Positions 22,392 through 31,155 of a DNA stretch of 64,000 nt are shown piece after piece. The notes under the pieces are model-generated. The model had not been told where the DNA came from and made no database searches. It saw only the letters and a program-made list of their open reading frames with translations. This DNA comes from Sporolactobacillus laevolacticus DSM 442 (GTDB lineage: Bacteria; Bacillota; Bacilli; Bacillales; Sporolactobacillaceae), in the NCBI RefSeq assembly GCF_000497245.1, contig NZ_AWTC01000004.1, positions 219,633 to 283,632 of the forward strand, given 5' to 3'. Positions within the stretch are counted from its first letter, which is position 1; every line of letters begins with the position of its first letter. The position numbers were made by a program, and so were the translations under genes.

Positions 22392-22420
22392 TTGACAATT
22401 TATCAAAATGTGTCTATTCT
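22392..22420 (+). promoter_or_regulatory. Sigma-A promoter of the cellulose (ccs-like) operon
   Basis: TTGACA at 22392-22397, 17-bp spacer, TATTCT at 22415-22420. Expected start is around 22426-22428, exactly where the riboswitch P1 strand begins. Confidence 0.85.
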
Positions 22421-22425
22421 AGGAC

Positions 22426-22501
22426 AAAAGGACACTATGATTCTTGCTCATTTAATTGGGTGCCTGTGAGCAGGAAGAGTGAATGGCACAACCGACCTTT
22501 T
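22426..22501 (+). promoter_or_regulatory. c-di-GMP-II riboswitch aptamer
   Basis: The segment reproduces the conserved c-di-GMP-II core: CTATGATTC, then a hairpin TGCTCA...TGAGCA whose loop carries TTTAATTGGGTGCC, then GAGTGAATGGCACAACCGACC (given in parts: GAGTGAATGGCA and CAACCGACC). The loop GTGCC pairs with downstream GGCAC to form the class-defining pseudoknot. P1 can form between AAAAGG (22426-22431) and CCTTTT (22496-22501). The match is to the known clostridial aptamer as I recall it. The CCGACC end of the aptamer is also the 5' arm of the following terminator, so ligand binding should favour read-through (an ON switch) into the synthase operon. The remaining leader, 22538-22830, shows no second riboswitch. 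Confidence 0.92.
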
Positions 22502-22537
22502 TACAGTTGACTAACTGTGAATAGGTCGGTTTTTTTA
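22490..22537 (+). terminator. Riboswitch expression platform: intrinsic terminator
   Basis: AACCGACCT at 22490-22498 pairs with AGGTCGGTT ending at 22531, with an inner ACAGTT/AACTGT hairpin, followed by seven T residues. Its 5' arm overlaps both the conserved aptamer 3' end and the P1 strand, so aptamer and terminator are mutually exclusive. Confidence 0.9.
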
Positions 22538-22830
22538 TGGAATTAAAGAGTTCATCATCTGGTTACTGCCAAAAAGTCCAATAATTTACTGTTTTAATTA
22601 TTAAAAATTCCTCAATATGATCATCACCTTTTTGCAGAAACTGCAAAGTTGGTTCCTTTACACTTGACGTATAAATCCGAAATTTATTTCCGTTGACTAA
22701 ATTATTTTCTTGGAAGATTCATGACAGAGAACTCAAAATGTATGTTTCCTCAGATTTAGCTATGGTCACTCAAAAAAACAAAAGAGTAGCCTAATCTACT
22801 AATATTCGTAAAGAATAGGGGGAGTAAATC
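22538..22830 (+). other. Long untranslated leader between riboswitch and cellulose synthase
   Basis: 293 bp without a coding frame. It has a TTTGCAG/CTGCAAA hairpin near 22632-22650 and a GTAG/CTAC mini-hairpin before the start. AGGGGGAG ends six bases before ATG 22831. No second promoter of good quality was found. Confidence 0.5.
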
Positions 22831-25248
22831 ATGGAGAAATTGAAAGGTAATCATTCGCCCACTGCTACTGTACAAGTTATTGAAAACAAGAACAATGTTC
22901 AAGAACATCCAAAGAGCATAAGGAATAGGTTCTTATTCTTGGGAACATTTATCACTACAATTGTCTATATTATATGGAGGGTGTTTTTTACCATTCCTTT
23001 TGACTATGGTATTTTTGCTTTAGTTTGCGGAATCACTTTATTAGTTGTTGAAATGACCGGAATGCTGGAAGCTGCGGAACACTTTTACAGTATGTCTAAT
23101 ATCTTACATCCGAAAAAGCCGGTACCTCCTAAGGAATGGTATCCAGATGTGGATGTCTTCATAGCAACGTACAACGAACCGGTTGAATTATTACGAAAGA
23201 CGGTTAACGGATGTAAGCGGATGGACTATGTCGATAAAAAGAAAGTGCATGTGTATATTTGTGATGATGGTAATCGACCGGAGATGCAAGCACTTGCGGA
23301 TAAAATGGGCATTGGCTATCTCACAAGAGAAGAACACAAGCACGCAAAAGCCGGTAATTTAAATAATGCAATGGAGAAAACGTCTTCTCCTCTTATTGCT
23401 ACATTTGATGCAGACATGATCCCTATGCATGATTTTCTGATGTCATCTGTTCCATATTTTTATGTAGAAGACAACACTGGAAAAAATTCAGGTCAGAAAG
23501 AAAAGATCGGATTTATTCAGACACCTCAAAGCTTTTATAATCCTGATCTGTTTCAGCATAACCTTTTTTCGGAAAATAGAATTCCTGATGAACAGGATTA
23601 TTTTTATCGCGATGTGCAGATCTCAAGAAATAAAACCAATTCTGTTATCTACGGCGGTACAAACACAGTCATATCCCGCGAGGCGTTAAATGAAGTCGGA
23701 GGATTTTGTACCGGTGTCATTACGGAAGATTTCGCAACAGGTATGCTTATTCAAAGCAAAGGGTATCAATGCTACGCGATCCCCGATCCCCACGCAATCG
23801 GTCAAGCTCCTTATGATCTGAAAAGCCTGATCAAGCAGCGTGTTCGATGGGCTAGAGGGTGCATCCAAACCGGCAGAAAATTGAATTTTTTCTTCATGAA
23901 GGGCTTGTCATTAAAACAAAAGTTAAGCTATCTATCGTCTATTCTTTATTGGTACGGTCCGATCAAAAGATTTGTCTATATTATGTCGCCGATTTTATTT
24001 ACTGTATTTAATGTTGTCGTTATTCGATGCACATTATTTGAAATACTTATTTTCTGGTTGCCTATGTACCTATTTCAAACAGCAACTTTGAGGTTTCTTT
24101 CGAAGGGTATTCGTAACACTCGCTGGACTAATGTCTATGAAACTATTTTATTCCCATCTCTGCTCGTACCTGTCATTCTGGAGAGTATTGGGATCAATAA
24201 AAAAGTGTTTTCAGTAACACGAAAGGATGGTGCCGGAGAAGATAGAATTTATGGCATCATTCATGCGATTCCTCACGTTATTCTTGTTACTTTAAGCTTG
24301 ATTGGAATTGCTTCAGGGATCAAGTGGACTTTTTCATCCGGATCAATGACTTATACTGTTCTGTTATTCTGGCTCATTACTAATCTGTATACATTGCTTA
24401 TGTCTACTTTCTTCATGCTGGGAAGACCTGTCGTGCGTAAGGCCGAAAGGTTTAAGGCAGCGATTGATTGTTCGCTTAGCTGGCAGGAAAAATGTATAAA
24501 ATGCCAAACCTATGACATCTCAGAAAAAGGACTTTCAATCATTTTGGATTACCCGTACTACGTTCCTTATGATCAGCAACTTCAGATTAATCTTCATTCT
24601 GATTTGTATTCATGTACATTTGCAGGAACTATTGTAAATGTTATACAACAGGGAGATAGCAAATGGAAATATGCAATCACGATCAATCACATTGAGGATG
24701 AGAAAAAGAATGATCTTTACAGCCTTGTTTATGATCGAAAGCCTTCTTTGCCTTCAAAACTTGAGAAAAGCATCAGTATTTTTGATGATTTAACCATTAA
24801 TGTTATTAACAGATTAAATCAATCTATCGATTATAACCGAAAGCTGGCAAGGGTGCATGTCAACAAAAAATTAAATACCAAAGAAGCTGGGGTGATCACG
24901 CTCCTGAATTTTAATTATGAATATGCCTTAATAAAAACGAAGCTAAGGCTTAGCACTGCAGAAAAACTAACAATCGATGTATCCGATGATATTATGATGT
25001 ACTGCACAATGGAAAAAGATATGACTGAGGTAATAAAACCTAATAAAAAGGCCAAAAATAGCCATTTTCTATACCTGTACCGTATTAATAATAAAAATGA
25101 TCTCATCTATAATGAACCGTTCAAAGGCTTTCTGAAAGATTGGATTGAACAGGCTGCTGCAGATCGATATGAAGAGCAGCGTTTCAAGAGGGCTAGGGCA
25201 AAAAGAATCGAATTTGACGATGAATTTTATGTCAGACATTATTTATAA
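22831..25248 (+). CDS. ccsA: Cellulose synthase catalytic subunit with PilZ domain (BcsA/CcsA-like)
   Basis: 805 residues. A membrane GT2 enzyme that polymerises UDP-glucose and extrudes the glucan. Two N-terminal spans are followed by the catalytic domain with DDGNR (D145/D146), TFDADM (D193, D195), TED (298-300) and QRVRW (336-340), then further spans. A PilZ domain follows, with the c-di-GMP motifs RKAER (R536, R540; RxxxR) and DISEKG (562-567; DxSxxG). Some 200 additional C-terminal residues of unknown role follow, longer than in typical BcsA without fused BcsB. The gene heads a five-gene set in the clostridial ccs style and is the first gene after the c-di-GMP-II riboswitch. The symbol follows the clostridial naming by gene content. 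A different beta-glucan product cannot be excluded. Confidence 0.9.
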   Translation: MEKLKGNHSPTATVQVIENKNNVQEHPKSIRNRFLFLGTFITTIVYIIWRVFFTIPFDYGIFALVCGITLLVVEMTGMLEAAEHFYSMSNILHPKKPVPPKEWYPDVDVFIATYNEPVELLRKTVNGCKRMDYVDKKKVHVYICDDGNRPEMQALADKMGIGYLTREEHKHAKAGNLNNAMEKTSSPLIATFDADMIPMHDFLMSSVPYFYVEDNTGKNSGQKEKIGFIQTPQSFYNPDLFQHNLFSENRIPDEQDYFYRDVQISRNKTNSVIYGGTNTVISREALNEVGGFCTGVITEDFATGMLIQSKGYQCYAIPDPHAIGQAPYDLKSLIKQRVRWARGCIQTGRKLNFFFMKGLSLKQKLSYLSSILYWYGPIKRFVYIMSPILFTVFNVVVIRCTLFEILIFWLPMYLFQTATLRFLSKGIRNTRWTNVYETILFPSLLVPVILESIGINKKVFSVTRKDGAGEDRIYGIIHAIPHVILVTLSLIGIASGIKWTFSSGSMTYTVLLFWLITNLYTLLMSTFFMLGRPVVRKAERFKAAIDCSLSWQEKCIKCQTYDISEKGLSIILDYPYYVPYDQQLQINLHSDLYSCTFAGTIVNVIQQGDSKWKYAITINHIEDEKKNDLYSLVYDRKPSLPSKLEKSISIFDDLTINVINRLNQSIDYNRKLARVHVNKKLNTKEAGVITLLNFNYEYALIKTKLRLSTAEKLTIDVSDDIMMYCTMEKDMTEVIKPNKKAKNSHFLYLYRINNKNDLIYNEPFKGFLKDWIEQAAADRYEEQRFKRARAKRIEFDDEFYVRHYL

Positions 25249-25276
25249 TTATCGCGGATTTTGAGGTGTTGTTTCG

Positions 25277-26368
25277 ATGAGGAAAAAGAAAATAATAATC
25301 TTTCTATTAATCATCTTTATCTTTTCATTCTGGGAGAATAAAGTATCTGCTTTTAATCTGGAAACCGTTAACTTTTCTCCAAATCCTTTAAAGATTTATT
25401 CAGATGGCGTAAAAGTAGACCTTCAATCACGGAACTCTGTAACATATGATGCATTGTTAGATACGTCTAAAAAGGAAAAGGGGGTATATACTACTTCTTT
25501 CTATGAAGACCGTTTGAGAAATCTAAATAATTACGGTGCGATGGTTTTTGATATTTCTAATCCGAACAAGACGGAAATGAGATTCAATTTCTCGTTCAAT
25601 ACCGGACGTATTTTGGTTCTTAAAAACGGCAGTTTTGTAGCCTTGATGAGTTCAAGCACAAGCAACTGGGAAACCTTTCGGGTCAAGAACGGAACCGTAT
25701 CAATTCCACCAGCCTTTCATGGGAAAATATATATTCCCTTTGCTAGTCTGTTCAAGAGTGATAAATCGGTGGATTTGTCAAGTATTAAATCATGGGGAAT
25801 CAGTTTTACACTGGATAAAAATCAAAAACAAAGAGTGAAATTTGGCGATTTCTCCTTTGTCACCAGATCTTTAGCGGACAAAGAAAACAGGGTACTGGAT
25901 CTGACCATCACGGGTGAAGAGAGTGTTCAAATTCCTGTTGCTGGCGAGTCTATCGCCTATTACCAGATCCGAAAGACTGAAAACACAGAAAATAAACCAA
26001 CTTTAGGACTGTTAGGTAAACCTAAAGGTGTTACATTGGACAAAAACGGGACATTGACTTTAACTACTCTTGCAAAGCCGCAAACGATCCGTTTAGTCTC
26101 TATTTCACCTGACGGCTCGAAGACTGTTAAATCCGTTCGTTTAATAAAATCGTGGATCATCGGCAAAAAAGCTGATGATGGAATTTCAATACAAATTCCT
26201 ATTCCTGACAAAGCTCCAAAAATAGTTAATATATCCAGTTTTCTTTATAGTGATGCAGCAACGCGGCTGATTCGATATATTCTAATCGTAATTGGTTTAC
26301 TATTAGTCCTAACTTATTTCTGGTGCAGAAAAAAATCTAAAAATAAGTTTATCAATTTAAATTTATAA
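25277..26368 (+). CDS. Secreted, membrane-anchored protein of the cellulose operon (CcsB/BcsB position)
   Basis: 363 residues. A signal peptide (about 1-25) is followed by an extracellular beta-rich region and one C-terminal membrane span (about 329-350) with a short basic tail (CRKKSKNKF). The topology matches BcsB: outside domain plus a single C-terminal anchor that docks on the synthase. It is only about half the usual BcsB length, and I see no clear BcsB carbohydrate-binding signature. It starts 28 nt after the synthase gene. I call it the probable functional counterpart of CcsB from position and topology. Homology is not established by eye; a carbohydrate-binding or Ig-type accessory protein is the alternative. 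Confidence 0.6.
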   Translation: MRKKKIIIFLLIIFIFSFWENKVSAFNLETVNFSPNPLKIYSDGVKVDLQSRNSVTYDALLDTSKKEKGVYTTSFYEDRLRNLNNYGAMVFDISNPNKTEMRFNFSFNTGRILVLKNGSFVALMSSSTSNWETFRVKNGTVSIPPAFHGKIYIPFASLFKSDKSVDLSSIKSWGISFTLDKNQKQRVKFGDFSFVTRSLADKENRVLDLTITGEESVQIPVAGESIAYYQIRKTENTENKPTLGLLGKPKGVTLDKNGTLTLTTLAKPQTIRLVSISPDGSKTVKSVRLIKSWIIGKKADDGISIQIPIPDKAPKIVNISSFLYSDAATRLIRYILIVIGLLLVLTYFWCRKKSKNKFINLNL

Positions 26369-26404
26369 TCGGAACATTACACGATTGATGGAGGATAACA
26401 GTCT

Positions 26405-27826
26405 ATGCTTTTTTCAAGTATACTATTTATTTTTTATTTTCTTCCTGCCGTTTTATTGCTGTATTTCGCCTGCAGATTCTCGACAAGGCTCCAAAATGTC
26501 GTTTTATTATTTGCCAGTCTTATTTTTTATGCCTGGGGCGAGCCTAGATTTGTCATTATAATGATTTCATCAATCCTATTCAACTATGTATGTGGCCTGC
26601 TTATAAACGCAACCTTAAAGAATAAGACATGGTCGAAAATCGCATTGATTTTCACAATTGTTGGGAATATCGGCAACCTTTTTGTATTCAAATATTTGGA
26701 TTTTGTCATCAAGAACATCAATTATGGGGCGCACGCACATATACCGCTACCGGATATTGTACTGCCATTGGGGATATCATTCTTCACGTTCCATTCATTA
26801 TCTTATATCATTGATGTCTACAGAGGAACTGTTAAAGTTCAAAAAAATCTGATCTACCTGGCGTTGTATATCGCTATCTTTCCGGCGCTTATTGCAGGGC
26901 CTATCGTACGCTACAACACGATTGCGAATCAGTTATTGGAACGAACAGAAACATGGAGAAAGTTTTCCATTGGCTGCTGTCGTTTCGTGACGGGACTTGG
27001 CAAGAAGGTGTTAATTGCGAACAACATGGCGATTGTTGCCGATCGCATTTTTGCGATGAGTGCGGATTCATCGATCCCGTTGCTATTAGCCTGGCTCGGC
27101 GCTATTGCCTATACATTCCAGATTTTCTTCGATTTTTCAGCTTATTCCGACATGGCGATTGGACTGGGATTAATGTTCGGGTATGAATTCGAGGAAAACT
27201 TCAATTATCCTTACCTATCAAAATCAATCTCAGAATTCTGGAGAAGATGGCACATTTCGCTCGGGACGTGGTTTAGGGACTATGTTTATTTTCCGCTCGG
27301 GGGTTCTCGTGTCGGCAGTACCGATAGATTAGTTTGGAACTTATTTATCGTATGGATGCTAACAGGTATTTGGCACGGGGCGGAATGGACATTTGTCGTT
27401 TGGGGGTTCATTAATTTTGTATGTATCACGTCTGAAAAGCTTTTCCAATTTGAACAGATACAAAATATTAACTTCATTAAACATGTTTATGCGCTTTTCG
27501 TTATTGTGATCGGATGGGTCATTTTCCGAGCGAACAATCTGCAGGCAGCCGGTAAATATATTGGATCCATGTTTGGAAGCGGAGGATTCTGGAGTGATAC
27601 GGCTTTTATGTTTGTTAAAGAATTTGCGGTATTTTTCATCATTGCCTTAATTCTTTGTGCACCCGTTGCAAGACGTGTGAACCGTATTGTCGTGGATAAT
27701 GATTATCCGGCACTCAGCATTGCGGTGACGATCCTTTATCCTGTTGTGATCTTGAGTTTATTTGTCCTTTCTGTGACTTACTTAGTCAAGGGAAGCTATA
27801 ATCCGTTCATTTATTTTCAATTTTAA
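26405..27826 (+). CDS. ccsH: MBOAT-family O-acyltransferase (AlgI/DltB/CcsH-like)
   Basis: 473 residues, multi-span membrane protein. Hallmarks are LPLGISFFTFHSLSYIIDVY, IAGPIVRY, FDFSAYSDMAIGLGLMFGY, FWRRWHISLGTWFRDYVYF and the catalytic-histidine segment LTGIWHGAEWTFVVWG (H324). These proteins move acetyl groups across the membrane for O-acetylation of exported polymers, with an AlgJ/AlgX/DltD-type partner, which here is the next gene. GGAGG precedes ATG 26405. In clostridial ccs operons an equivalent gene supports cellulose acetylation, so acetylated cellulose is the inferred product here. Confidence 0.9.
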   Translation: MLFSSILFIFYFLPAVLLLYFACRFSTRLQNVVLLFASLIFYAWGEPRFVIIMISSILFNYVCGLLINATLKNKTWSKIALIFTIVGNIGNLFVFKYLDFVIKNINYGAHAHIPLPDIVLPLGISFFTFHSLSYIIDVYRGTVKVQKNLIYLALYIAIFPALIAGPIVRYNTIANQLLERTETWRKFSIGCCRFVTGLGKKVLIANNMAIVADRIFAMSADSSIPLLLAWLGAIAYTFQIFFDFSAYSDMAIGLGLMFGYEFEENFNYPYLSKSISEFWRRWHISLGTWFRDYVYFPLGGSRVGSTDRLVWNLFIVWMLTGIWHGAEWTFVVWGFINFVCITSEKLFQFEQIQNINFIKHVYALFVIVIGWVIFRANNLQAAGKYIGSMFGSGGFWSDTAFMFVKEFAVFFIIALILCAPVARRVNRIVVDNDYPALSIAVTILYPVVILSLFVLSVTYLVKGSYNPFIYFQF

Positions 27827-27838
27827 GGGGAAACTTAA

Positions 27839-29044
27839 ATGAAAAAATTTTTTATCATAAGATTAATCACAGCTATCCTCTTCATTTGCGTTCTTTTCAC
27901 GTATTCAATCATGAATTTCATGAATGCTTTGGATCCGATAAAAGCAGCGTTATCTAAAGTGAAACCCGCTCCATCTAAACAGTTCGTTGACTCAGTCAAT
28001 TCGGCAATTGACGAGAATGTATATGGAAAATATAGCATGGTCGAGGGATATGGATACCTGCAAAAACTCTTGGGAAAGAATGAAGAGGCGAATTTTGAAG
28101 TCGTTAAGGATAATTCTGGGAGTCTGCACTATACTTACTTTACATCCAAACCAAATCCTGTAGGTGATTTGGCGGATCGGGTTGAAAGGTTGAAGGAGGG
28201 AATAAAAGACAAGAAAGCTAGACTGGTTGTCCTTATGCCACCTGATAAAAACGTCCGAGGCTATACCAAATTTCCTAAGGGTATCCCGTACTCCTACGCA
28301 AATGAGACTGCAGATAATTTCTTAAAAGCTGTTCGGGAAAAGCAAATTGACACACTCGATTTTCGAACGCATTTATTAAACAGCGGAATTCCTGCAAAAG
28401 ACCTGTTCTTTAAAACGGATCATCACTGGAAAATACAAACCGCTTTTTGGGCGTTCAGTGAGCTGGTCTCATATTTAAATAGGAATGATCAAATGAACTT
28501 GGATCCCGATCATTATTATACAAATATTAAGAATTATAATCAGATTACTTACAAGCATTCATACCTTGGTTCCCTGGGAGCCAAAACAGGTACTCTTTAT
28601 GCGGGAATTGATGATTTTACATTAATCTATCCTAAATTTAAAACCGATTATACGTTTCACTCACAAAATAGTCTGTTCAAAATCAACACAAGTGGGAGAT
28701 TTGAAGATGCGTTAATGAATGGACATCCATTTCATGTCTCTGGAAATAATGCTTTATTTTCTTTGGAATCGGATAAATATTTCACTTATCTGTATGGTAA
28801 TCAGGCTCTTGTTCACATTGTTAATAAACAAAATCCGAAAGGACCGAAAGTTCTTTTCATTAAAGATTCGATGTCTGTGCCCCTGGCCGCTTTCTTTTCA
28901 ACGGTCTGCTCCGATGTTTATTTAGTTGATCCGAGATACTATCATGGTGATATGAGTAAACTAATAAACAGTTATAAACATTTGGATGATATTTTTGTAT
29001 CCATCTATCCAGAAGATCTTAATAAGGAGTTCTTCCCTTATTAA
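27839..29044 (+). CDS. ccsI: AlgJ/AlgX-like (SGNH-fold) O-acetylation protein
   Basis: 401 residues with an N-terminal signal anchor (about 1-25), so the domain is extracellular. The family catalytic motif TDHHW (T193-W197) is present, and FIKDSMSVPLAAFF (S344 in the position of the usual GDS serine) supplies the nucleophile segment. AlgJ/AlgX-type proteins accept acetyl from an MBOAT partner and place it on the polymer. It starts 12 nt after the MBOAT gene, as expected for a functional pair. The nucleophile motif reads KDSMS rather than the more common GDS, a modest variation. The polymer acceptor is inferred from the operon. Confidence 0.85.
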   Translation: MKKFFIIRLITAILFICVLFTYSIMNFMNALDPIKAALSKVKPAPSKQFVDSVNSAIDENVYGKYSMVEGYGYLQKLLGKNEEANFEVVKDNSGSLHYTYFTSKPNPVGDLADRVERLKEGIKDKKARLVVLMPPDKNVRGYTKFPKGIPYSYANETADNFLKAVREKQIDTLDFRTHLLNSGIPAKDLFFKTDHHWKIQTAFWAFSELVSYLNRNDQMNLDPDHYYTNIKNYNQITYKHSYLGSLGAKTGTLYAGIDDFTLIYPKFKTDYTFHSQNSLFKINTSGRFEDALMNGHPFHVSGNNALFSLESDKYFTYLYGNQALVHIVNKQNPKGPKVLFIKDSMSVPLAAFFSTVCSDVYLVDPRYYHGDMSKLINSYKHLDDIFVSIYPEDLNKEFFPY

Positions 29045-29097
29045 AATAAAACCGAAACAACAAACAAGCACACTAACGTACCTAGGGAGACTTTAAT

Positions 29098-30126
29098 ATG
29101 AAAGGTAAGAAAAAACTTATTTTGTTTAGTCTCATGTTAATGTTGATCATTCTGTTTTCATCGCTAGTTCCTTATTTTCATTATAAATATTCGGAGAAAA
29201 AACAAATGGTTCAATTTCGTTCTATGAATATAGGGAATGCATTAGATGCTCCGCGATATACACCGTGGGATGTTCAAATGAAGTCTGGGTACTTTAAAGC
29301 AATTAAAAAAGCAGGTTTTAACTCAGTCCGATTGCCGGTCCGATTCTCGGATTATGCAAAAGATAATCCGAATTATGAACTTGATCCGTCTTTTATGAAA
29401 AGATTAGACGGCTATCTCCATGTTGCTCTGAAGCAGCATTTATATGTGATCTTGGACTTTCATCACTTCGAGGAAATCATGCAGAATCCTGAACAGTATC
29501 ATACGTGTTTTCTGAGCGTTTGGAAACAATTGTCCGAACGATATAAGAATTACTCATCACATTTGATGTTTGAAGTACTAAACGAACCGAGAGATAATCT
29601 GAATGGAAATCTATGGAATCAGTACTTGGCAGAAGCGATCCATATCATCAGAAAAACGAATCCAACACGAAAAGTCATTGTGGGACCCGACAACTATTAC
29701 TCCTTATACCGTTTGGATGCACTCCGGATACCGAAAGACAGGAATCTGATCGTCTCTTTTCATTACTATGAACCTAATAAATTTACCTTCCAGGCTAATC
29801 CTTATCTAGGGTTTTCTCAGTACCATGATATTGAATGGAAGGGTACAAAGCAGGAAGTTAATTATATACATGACCGGTTTGCTAGAGTTAAAAAATGGGC
29901 GGATCAACATGATGTTCAGGTTTATCTAGGAGAGTTTGGTGCCAACAAACAAGCACCTTATGAATCAAGGCTTCACTGGACTGAAGAAGTTCGTCAGCAA
30001 GCTGAAGAATTTGGATTCAGCTGGGGGTACTGGGAACTCGCGTCATCCTTCGGGGTATATGATGCTCATACGGGAAAGTGGGACAAGAATATGCTTAAAA
30101 CCTTGCTCCCTGATAAATATAAATAA
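29098..30126 (+). CDS. ccsZ: GH5-family endoglucanase (CcsZ-like), membrane-anchored
   Basis: 342 residues. An N-terminal hydrophobic segment (about 5-25) without a clear cleavage site suggests a signal anchor. The TIM barrel carries GFNSVRLPVRF, the acid/base glutamate in FEVLNEPRDN (E163) and the nucleophile in VYLGEFGANK (E279), the GH5 pattern. Bacterial cellulose operons commonly include such a cellulase to trim or release chains during export. It is the last gene of the riboswitch-controlled series, 53 nt after the AlgJ-like gene with its own GGGAG site. In the clostridial cluster the equivalent gene is first rather than last. Confidence 0.92.
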   Translation: MKGKKKLILFSLMLMLIILFSSLVPYFHYKYSEKKQMVQFRSMNIGNALDAPRYTPWDVQMKSGYFKAIKKAGFNSVRLPVRFSDYAKDNPNYELDPSFMKRLDGYLHVALKQHLYVILDFHHFEEIMQNPEQYHTCFLSVWKQLSERYKNYSSHLMFEVLNEPRDNLNGNLWNQYLAEAIHIIRKTNPTRKVIVGPDNYYSLYRLDALRIPKDRNLIVSFHYYEPNKFTFQANPYLGFSQYHDIEWKGTKQEVNYIHDRFARVKKWADQHDVQVYLGEFGANKQAPYESRLHWTEEVRQQAEEFGFSWGYWELASSFGVYDAHTGKWDKNMLKTLLPDKYK

Positions 30127-31046: not shown

Positions 31047-31155
31047 TTCTTATCCAGAGTGGCGGAGGGACTGGCCCAAAGAAACCCGACAACCAGCATG
31101 TAGTTCATGTATGGTGTTAATTCCAGGAGCACAATTTGTGTTCAAAAGATAAGAA
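31047..31155 (+). promoter_or_regulatory. SAM-I (S-box) riboswitch aptamer
   Basis: P1 strands TTCTTATC (31047-31054) and GATAAGAA (31148-31155) enclose the conserved core: CAGAGTGGCGGAGGGACTGG, then CCCAAAGAAACCCGACAACC, a P3 hairpin, and ATGGTGTTAATTCC. This is the canonical S-box layout. Known S-boxes shut off sulfur-amino-acid genes when S-adenosylmethionine is plentiful. The downstream transporter operon is therefore inferred to serve methionine or sulfur supply. Confidence 0.95.

Follow-up and report, generated by a model that had tools for sequence, protein, structure and literature searches.

A c-di-GMP-II riboswitch as the very probable transcriptional ON switch of a ccsABHIZ-type exopolysaccharide operon in Sporolactobacillus laevolacticus

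How might a Gram-positive bacterium place the synthesis of an exopolysaccharide under the control of the second messenger cyclic dimeric GMP (c-di-GMP)? The question is raised by a stretch of 64,000 nucleotides (nt) from the spore-forming lactic-acid bacterium Sporolactobacillus laevolacticus DSM 442 (contig NZ_AWTC01000004.1), hereafter the window, in which a five-gene operon (22831-30126) is preceded by a candidate c-di-GMP-II riboswitch. A preliminary description, whose coordinates include all five genes, had described this leader as an apparent ON switch driving a cellulose operon. The evidence assembled here makes it very likely, in our judgement, that a c-di-GMP-II riboswitch serves as the transcriptional ON switch of what is better described as a ccsABHIZ-type exopolysaccharide operon.

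The assignment to the c-di-GMP-II class holds. The Rfam model RF01786 matches the plus strand over its full length (model positions 1-84) with 56.8 bits, against a gathering threshold of 53.5 (E-value 6.3e-10 over the whole window), and this is the sole RF01786 match in the 3.59 Mb genome among those listed at E <= 0.001. Our own covariance model, R1, whose alignment includes the window itself, gives 62.4 bits. The pseudoknot that joins the P2 loop to the 3' strand is left unpaired in the structure line of the Rfam match, yet it pairs in all 33 aptamers of an alignment comprising the window, two clostridial ccs leaders and the 30 best-scoring other matches of the order Bacillales (100% paired cells). 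When the pseudoknot is taken together with P1 and the inner helix, 90.0% of the cells are paired and changes on both sides occur at 13 of the 14 pairs, neither value being equalled in any of 500 shuffles. Since the alignment structure came from the family, part of this pairing excess is expected; structures shifted by one to three columns are at most 43.5% paired, and the count of further pair types is ordinary (102 of 500 shuffles). In the window all five pseudoknot pairs are formed, with both partners altered relative to the commonest pair in three of them: when the best-pairing register is chosen, GCACU/AGUGC is the form of 26 of 39 aptamers, and the window has GUGCC/GGCAC instead. The alignment, window included, has 15 invariant core columns. 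The window departs at four of 12 nearly invariant ones, of which columns 41, 67 and 68 belong to the pseudoknot and are compensated, and column 46 adjoins an insertion. Judged from its sequence, 22421-22506 is a real c-di-GMP-II aptamer.

The direction of the switch follows from a terminator that shares a strand with this aptamer. The terminator with its tail (22490-22540) folds at -24.3 kcal/mol (z -6.5; none of 200 shuffles as good), and its 5' arm, AACCGACCU (22490-22498), covers the conserved AACC together with half of the P1 3' strand. This bears out the earlier proposal that the arm is the aptamer's own 3' end and is excluded by P1. In a series of folds of the growing transcript, modeled with neither ligand nor pseudoknot energy, P1 is retained until about 22522 and gives way from about 22526. 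Because the terminator arm consists of the aptamer core and the P1 3' strand, ligand should give read-through; the architecture, with strands that are mutually exclusive in the folds, is that of a switch that should be ON, as first suggested. One study reports that class II switches of Clostridioides difficile are uniformly ON in vivo (PMC6200980). In a scan confined to hairpins whose start lies between 18 nt upstream and 8 nt downstream of the aptamer end, a terminator-like hairpin beginning within the aptamer was present in all eight synthase-linked leaders tested (window, L041, L045, L119, L122, L124, L154 and L160), and also in 19 of 30 further leaders from the order.

These features suggest the following mechanism. 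RNA polymerase would start at or just before P1: a promoter-like site ends at 22420, so the transcript should begin at P1, with a predicted start at about 22426-22428, its first bases. The consensus scan that gave this site found five sites on both strands, compared with 2.9 +/- 1.8 in shuffles. Were c-di-GMP bound at aptamer completion, P1 and the pseudoknot would hold the AACC-GACCUUUU strand, and transcription would read through into ccsA. When c-di-GMP is lacking, the same strand would pair with AGGUCGGUU some 30 nt later and the transcript would end in the T run. Given the PilZ domain on CcsA, c-di-GMP may control both the expression of the operon and the activity of the enzyme. From the leader's sequence and folds, we infer that the ON riboswitch is very probably functional.

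Several observations weigh against this view. Taken alone, the minimum-energy fold of the aptamer is unremarkable (z -0.73; 46 of 200 shuffles do at least as well), which leaves the covariance model, the pseudoknot and the terminator to carry the argument. P1 is short and rich in A-U pairs. Simple terminator scans (one found none, another listed 12) miss the hairpin at 22490-22531, seemingly because they disallow the internal mismatch present on either side of the stem. Without ligand, the terminator state (-41.6 kcal/mol) lies 16 kcal/mol below the forced aptamer state (-25.4 kcal/mol), so switching must be kinetic. The stretch between terminator and ccsA (22537-22830) finds no place in this scheme. 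Promoter-like sites occur on the plus strand inside the operon (e.g., 23231 and 25085), and some transcripts may start there; operon-wide, such sites are at chance level (29 on both strands versus 27.2 expected). The closest ccs relative, in Sporolactobacillus nakayamae, has no aptamer match with either RF01786 or R1, which shows that the operon can exist without the switch. Finally, no PilZ control was seen in vitro for a relative, RiGT2 (PMC10374906).

Some of these points would also fit an account in which the hairpin at 22490-22536 is a mere terminator of the upstream M20 peptidase gene, the aptamer has decayed and the operon uses another promoter. P1 has six pairs, four of them A-U, the Rfam score is just 3.3 bits above gathering, the sister species S. 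nakayamae lacks a match, and a decayed-looking aptamer does exist before ccsA in Clostridium acidisoli (L122, 40.4 bits with R1). However, all pseudoknot pairs of the window are preserved by compensatory change, and two congeners hold the same variant with different P2 sequences. Moreover, the stretch from the peptidase gene to the aptamer contains a promoter-like site, whereas consensus scans found no sigma-70-like site on the plus strand from the terminator to ccsA. We regard this account as improbable. Slightly more doubtful still is an altered-specificity variant that binds a ligand other than c-di-GMP. In its favour are the re-coded pseudoknot and the scores under gathering of the subtype's other two members. 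Against it, three of the window's four departures at nearly invariant columns are compensated within the pseudoknot and the fourth adjoins an insertion, and all three members stand before synthases that bear a PilZ or an MshEN-like domain. Least credible is an OFF or translational switch, in which ligand raises termination or masks the ribosome site: class I switches are mostly OFF in C. difficile according to PMC6200980, but here the aptamer itself supplies the terminator arm, a separate anti-terminator is absent from the folds and about 290 nt separate the terminator from the ribosome site.

The genes that the proposed transcriptional ON switch would govern (Table 1) form, by homology, what is a ccsABHIZ-type operon for beta-glucan synthesis and O-acetylation. 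The CcsA-like protein shares 41-64% identity with 27 loci, the nearest being S. nakayamae, followed by Clostridium; TIGR03030 scores 392.5 bits on it, under the cut-off of 699.1. Its PilZ domain (PF07238, E-value 5.3e-10) carries RKAER and DISEKG, read by eye as RxxxR and DxSxxG; D/NxSxxG is a PilZ motif. RxxxR is likewise given as a PilZ motif in PMC10374906. The CcsB-like protein matched no Pfam or NCBIfam family, and its identity is 40% to S. nakayamae and 24-32% where it was found in clostridial and other loci. In S. nakayamae all five homologues occur in one cluster (64, 40, 79, 64 and 67% identity for A, B, H, I and Z), and many clostridial loci have four or five of the ccs genes; Clostridium puniceum is among the loci where no ccsZ was found within the stretch examined. 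The earlier label of a cellulose operon therefore stands only in part: a cellulose-synthase-like operon does lie downstream, but cellulose as the polymer is unproven, and insecure because a characterised relative, RiGT2 of Romboutsia, makes (1,3;1,4)-beta-glucan (PMC10374906). Across the genome, seven GGDEF and four EAL matches exceed their cut-offs, three with a GGDEF/GGEEF signature by a simple pattern. Between the terminator and ccsA, 22537-22830 holds no open reading frame of at least 80 amino acids (aa) and no promoter-like site on the plus strand.

Table 1. Features of the leader and operon, in window coordinates
Feature	Position	Strand	Basis or remark
Sigma-A-type promoter (candidate), TTGACA - 17 nt - TATTCT	22392..22420	+	Consensus scan only, 10/12 consensus matches
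c-di-GMP-II riboswitch aptamer (RF01786)	22421..22506	+	Covariance-model match and own model R1
P1 5' strand AAAAGG	22426..22431	+	Covariance match, alignment, folds
Pseudoknot 5' strand GUGCC	22460..22464	+	Alignment, pair test, folds
Pseudoknot 3' strand GGCAC	22485..22489	+	Alignment, pair test, folds
Intrinsic terminator (hairpin 22490-22531, T run 22530-22536)	22490..22536	+	Fold; 5' arm overlaps AACC core and P1 3' strand
P1 3' strand CCUUUU	22496..22501	+	Partly common to terminator 5' arm
ccsA/bcsA-like GT2 synthase, C-terminal PilZ, 805 aa	22831..25248	+	PF13641, PF03552, PF07238
ccsB-like extracytoplasmic protein, probably membrane-anchored, 363 aa	25277..26368	+	Homology; anchoring inferred
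ccsH-like MBOAT O-acyltransferase	26405..27826	+	PF03062 and homology
ccsI-like AlgX/DHHW SGNH acetyltransferase	27839..29044	+	PF16822 and homology
ccsZ-like GH5 endoglucanase	29098..30126	+	PF00150 and homology

How unusual is such a switch? That the class is best known from clostridia agrees with a 2025 review, which places it predominantly in Clostridioides (PMC12564702). The claim that it is unusual for Bacillales does not survive: RF01786 matches 148 of 397 genomes of the order (140 over the cut-off), in 68 of 135 genera. By our reading, 15 of the 30 best-scoring loci precede type IV pilin or prepilin peptidase genes; others among the 30 lie at genes for GGDEF proteins (L012, L018 and L031) or a chemotaxis receptor (L030). 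In another family of the order, a further one of the 30 (L019 1501-1584, also L156) stands directly before a PelF-like glycosyltransferase gene (NF038011, 152.2 bits). This PelF-like gene sits within a larger polysaccharide gene cluster.

As for the target, an exopolysaccharide synthase is uncommon, as had been proposed, but recurrent. An R1 scan places an aptamer directly upstream in six of 68 ccsA-like loci (6/54 without the 14 most distant), namely the window, C. puniceum, Tepidibacter mesophilus, C. acidisoli and two more genomes of the family of C. puniceum, and in all six a terminator-like hairpin starts inside the aptamer. The 68 loci are the window, S. nakayamae, 28 Clostridiaceae, 11 Peptostreptococcaceae, 19 of class Bacilli (14 of which have 43% identity or less) and eight more (L050, L057, L058, L059, L063, L064, L065 and L066). 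None of the 19 loci of class Bacilli has an RF01786 match at gathering, and six Sporolactobacillus relatives outside the ccsA count (L034-L039, 28-43% identity) have no R1 match. Weak R1 matches at L119 4971-5033 (22 bits) and L137 248-281 (15.2 bits) were not counted as leaders. Some leaders could be missed, since only about 300 nt upstream of ccsA were available for L129 (= L049) and L134 (= L061), and a 1500-nt flank for other retrieved loci, above all where ccsZ is first. On a 45-row ccsA tree, which leaves out the ccsA fragment L142, five changes of the aptamer label are required, four of which well-supported branches make unavoidable; the tree does not distinguish gains from losses, and the label clusters no more than by chance (115 of 500 shuffles as low). 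The C. acidisoli aptamer (L122 3791-3874, minus strand; = L055 7832-7915) keeps three of five pseudoknot pairs and a terminator-like hairpin, and is perhaps a decaying switch.

Within Sporolactobacillus, ccsA with more than 60% identity occurs in two of 15 genomes. The S. nakayamae ccs operon lies just downstream of a 6S RNA gene (L040 7492-7677), and the neighbours found in the window (M20 peptidase and VanZ-like genes) were not found in the 18 kb around it. RF01786 is listed in two of the 15 genomes, one under gathering, and R1 adds a third, L160. The same re-coded aptamer and terminator occur in two other Sporolactobacillus genomes (L154 1501-1587 and L160 1103-1190), where RF01786 scores 47.6 and 38.9 bits, respectively, both below gathering. 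GUGCC/GGCAC is confined to these and the window among 39 aptamers (3/39). Genome-wide negatives are no proof of absence, for nothing was listed in genome G404, yet its aptamer scores 38.9 bits. In L154 and L160 the aptamer lies upstream of an operon for an MshEN-like GT2 synthase (777 aa in L155), with PF05157 at 24.0 bits in L155 and 22.6 in the L160 protein (cut-off 23.1). MshEN binds c-di-GMP. This synthase is present in six of the 15 genomes, with an aptamer upstream in two and no match in four. The window aptamer is nearest to L154 (alignment score 32, versus 20 for the next of 37, a comparison outside which L160 stood), although a looser identity ranking does not put L154 near the top. 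The leader seems, on this sequence comparison, to belong to the genus and to be used on two different synthase operons.

Two other histories were considered. Inheritance of the switch with the operon from clostridia was rejected, because the aptamer is nearest another Sporolactobacillus, the S. nakayamae ccs operon has no match and the tree needs five changes. A leader shared with L154 is disfavoured, the L154 flanks ranking only tied second to fourth upstream and tenth downstream among 37. The chances seem to us about even that the genus has its own aptamer lineage, with a re-coded pseudoknot and scores partly below the Rfam threshold, before two unrelated synthase operons (ccs with PilZ, and a GT2 with MshEN), each gated twice (transcription and enzyme), and that the switch was recruited locally rather than inherited with ccs from clostridia, as part of a wider and repeated recruitment of ON switches to synthase operons.

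Other RNA elements were seen in passing. The window's plus strand also carries an S-adenosylmethionine riboswitch (31047-31155, 82.4 bits) upstream of an operon for an SBP_bac_5 (oligopeptide-type) ATP-binding cassette transporter, and a Bacillaceae-1 RNA (RF01690, 62940-63007, 61.9 bits). In another genus of the same family, a c-di-GMP-II aptamer (L157 91-175, 73.6 bits with R1) lies upstream of genes for apparent small secreted proteins.

The interest of these findings lies mainly in the repeated link to synthase operons and in the genus-specific aptamer variant. They offer a concrete route by which c-di-GMP could govern Gram-positive beta-glucan synthesis via transcription: the authors of the RiGT2 study, having seen no effect of c-di-GMP on their enzyme, allowed that it might act through transcription (PMC10374906). 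In the re-coded pseudoknot nature has supplied a compensatory change within an aptamer, and the leaders are short, self-contained and suited to in vitro tests. Because L154 and L160 fall below threshold, searches at Rfam gathering under-count the class.

Compared with known systems, the sensor class and the ON direction are well known, and the synthase-operon target was not found described. The accessible parts of the open-access literature, which excludes subscription papers, yielded no c-di-GMP-II switch before a ccs or cellulose operon, which is weak evidence of absence. The window's CcsA resembles the mixed-linkage glucan synthases RiGT2/Cgs of Romboutsia in joining GT2 to PilZ, and RiGT2 is itself compared with CcsA in PMC10374906; RiGT2 differs in showing no c-di-GMP dependence in vitro. 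With clostridial ccsZABHI (PMC7710045) the window shares five homologous genes (A, B, H, I and Z) and a PilZ domain on CcsA, but its order is A-B-H-I-Z and a riboswitch stands in front; the word riboswitch does not occur in the main text of that paper. With the four class II switches of C. difficile (PMC6200980) it shares the aptamer fold, P1, a pseudoknot, the conserved core and, by its architecture, the ON direction, but it differs from them in its GUGCC/GGCAC pseudoknot and in preceding a beta-glucan synthase operon rather than genes for adhesins or type IV pili.

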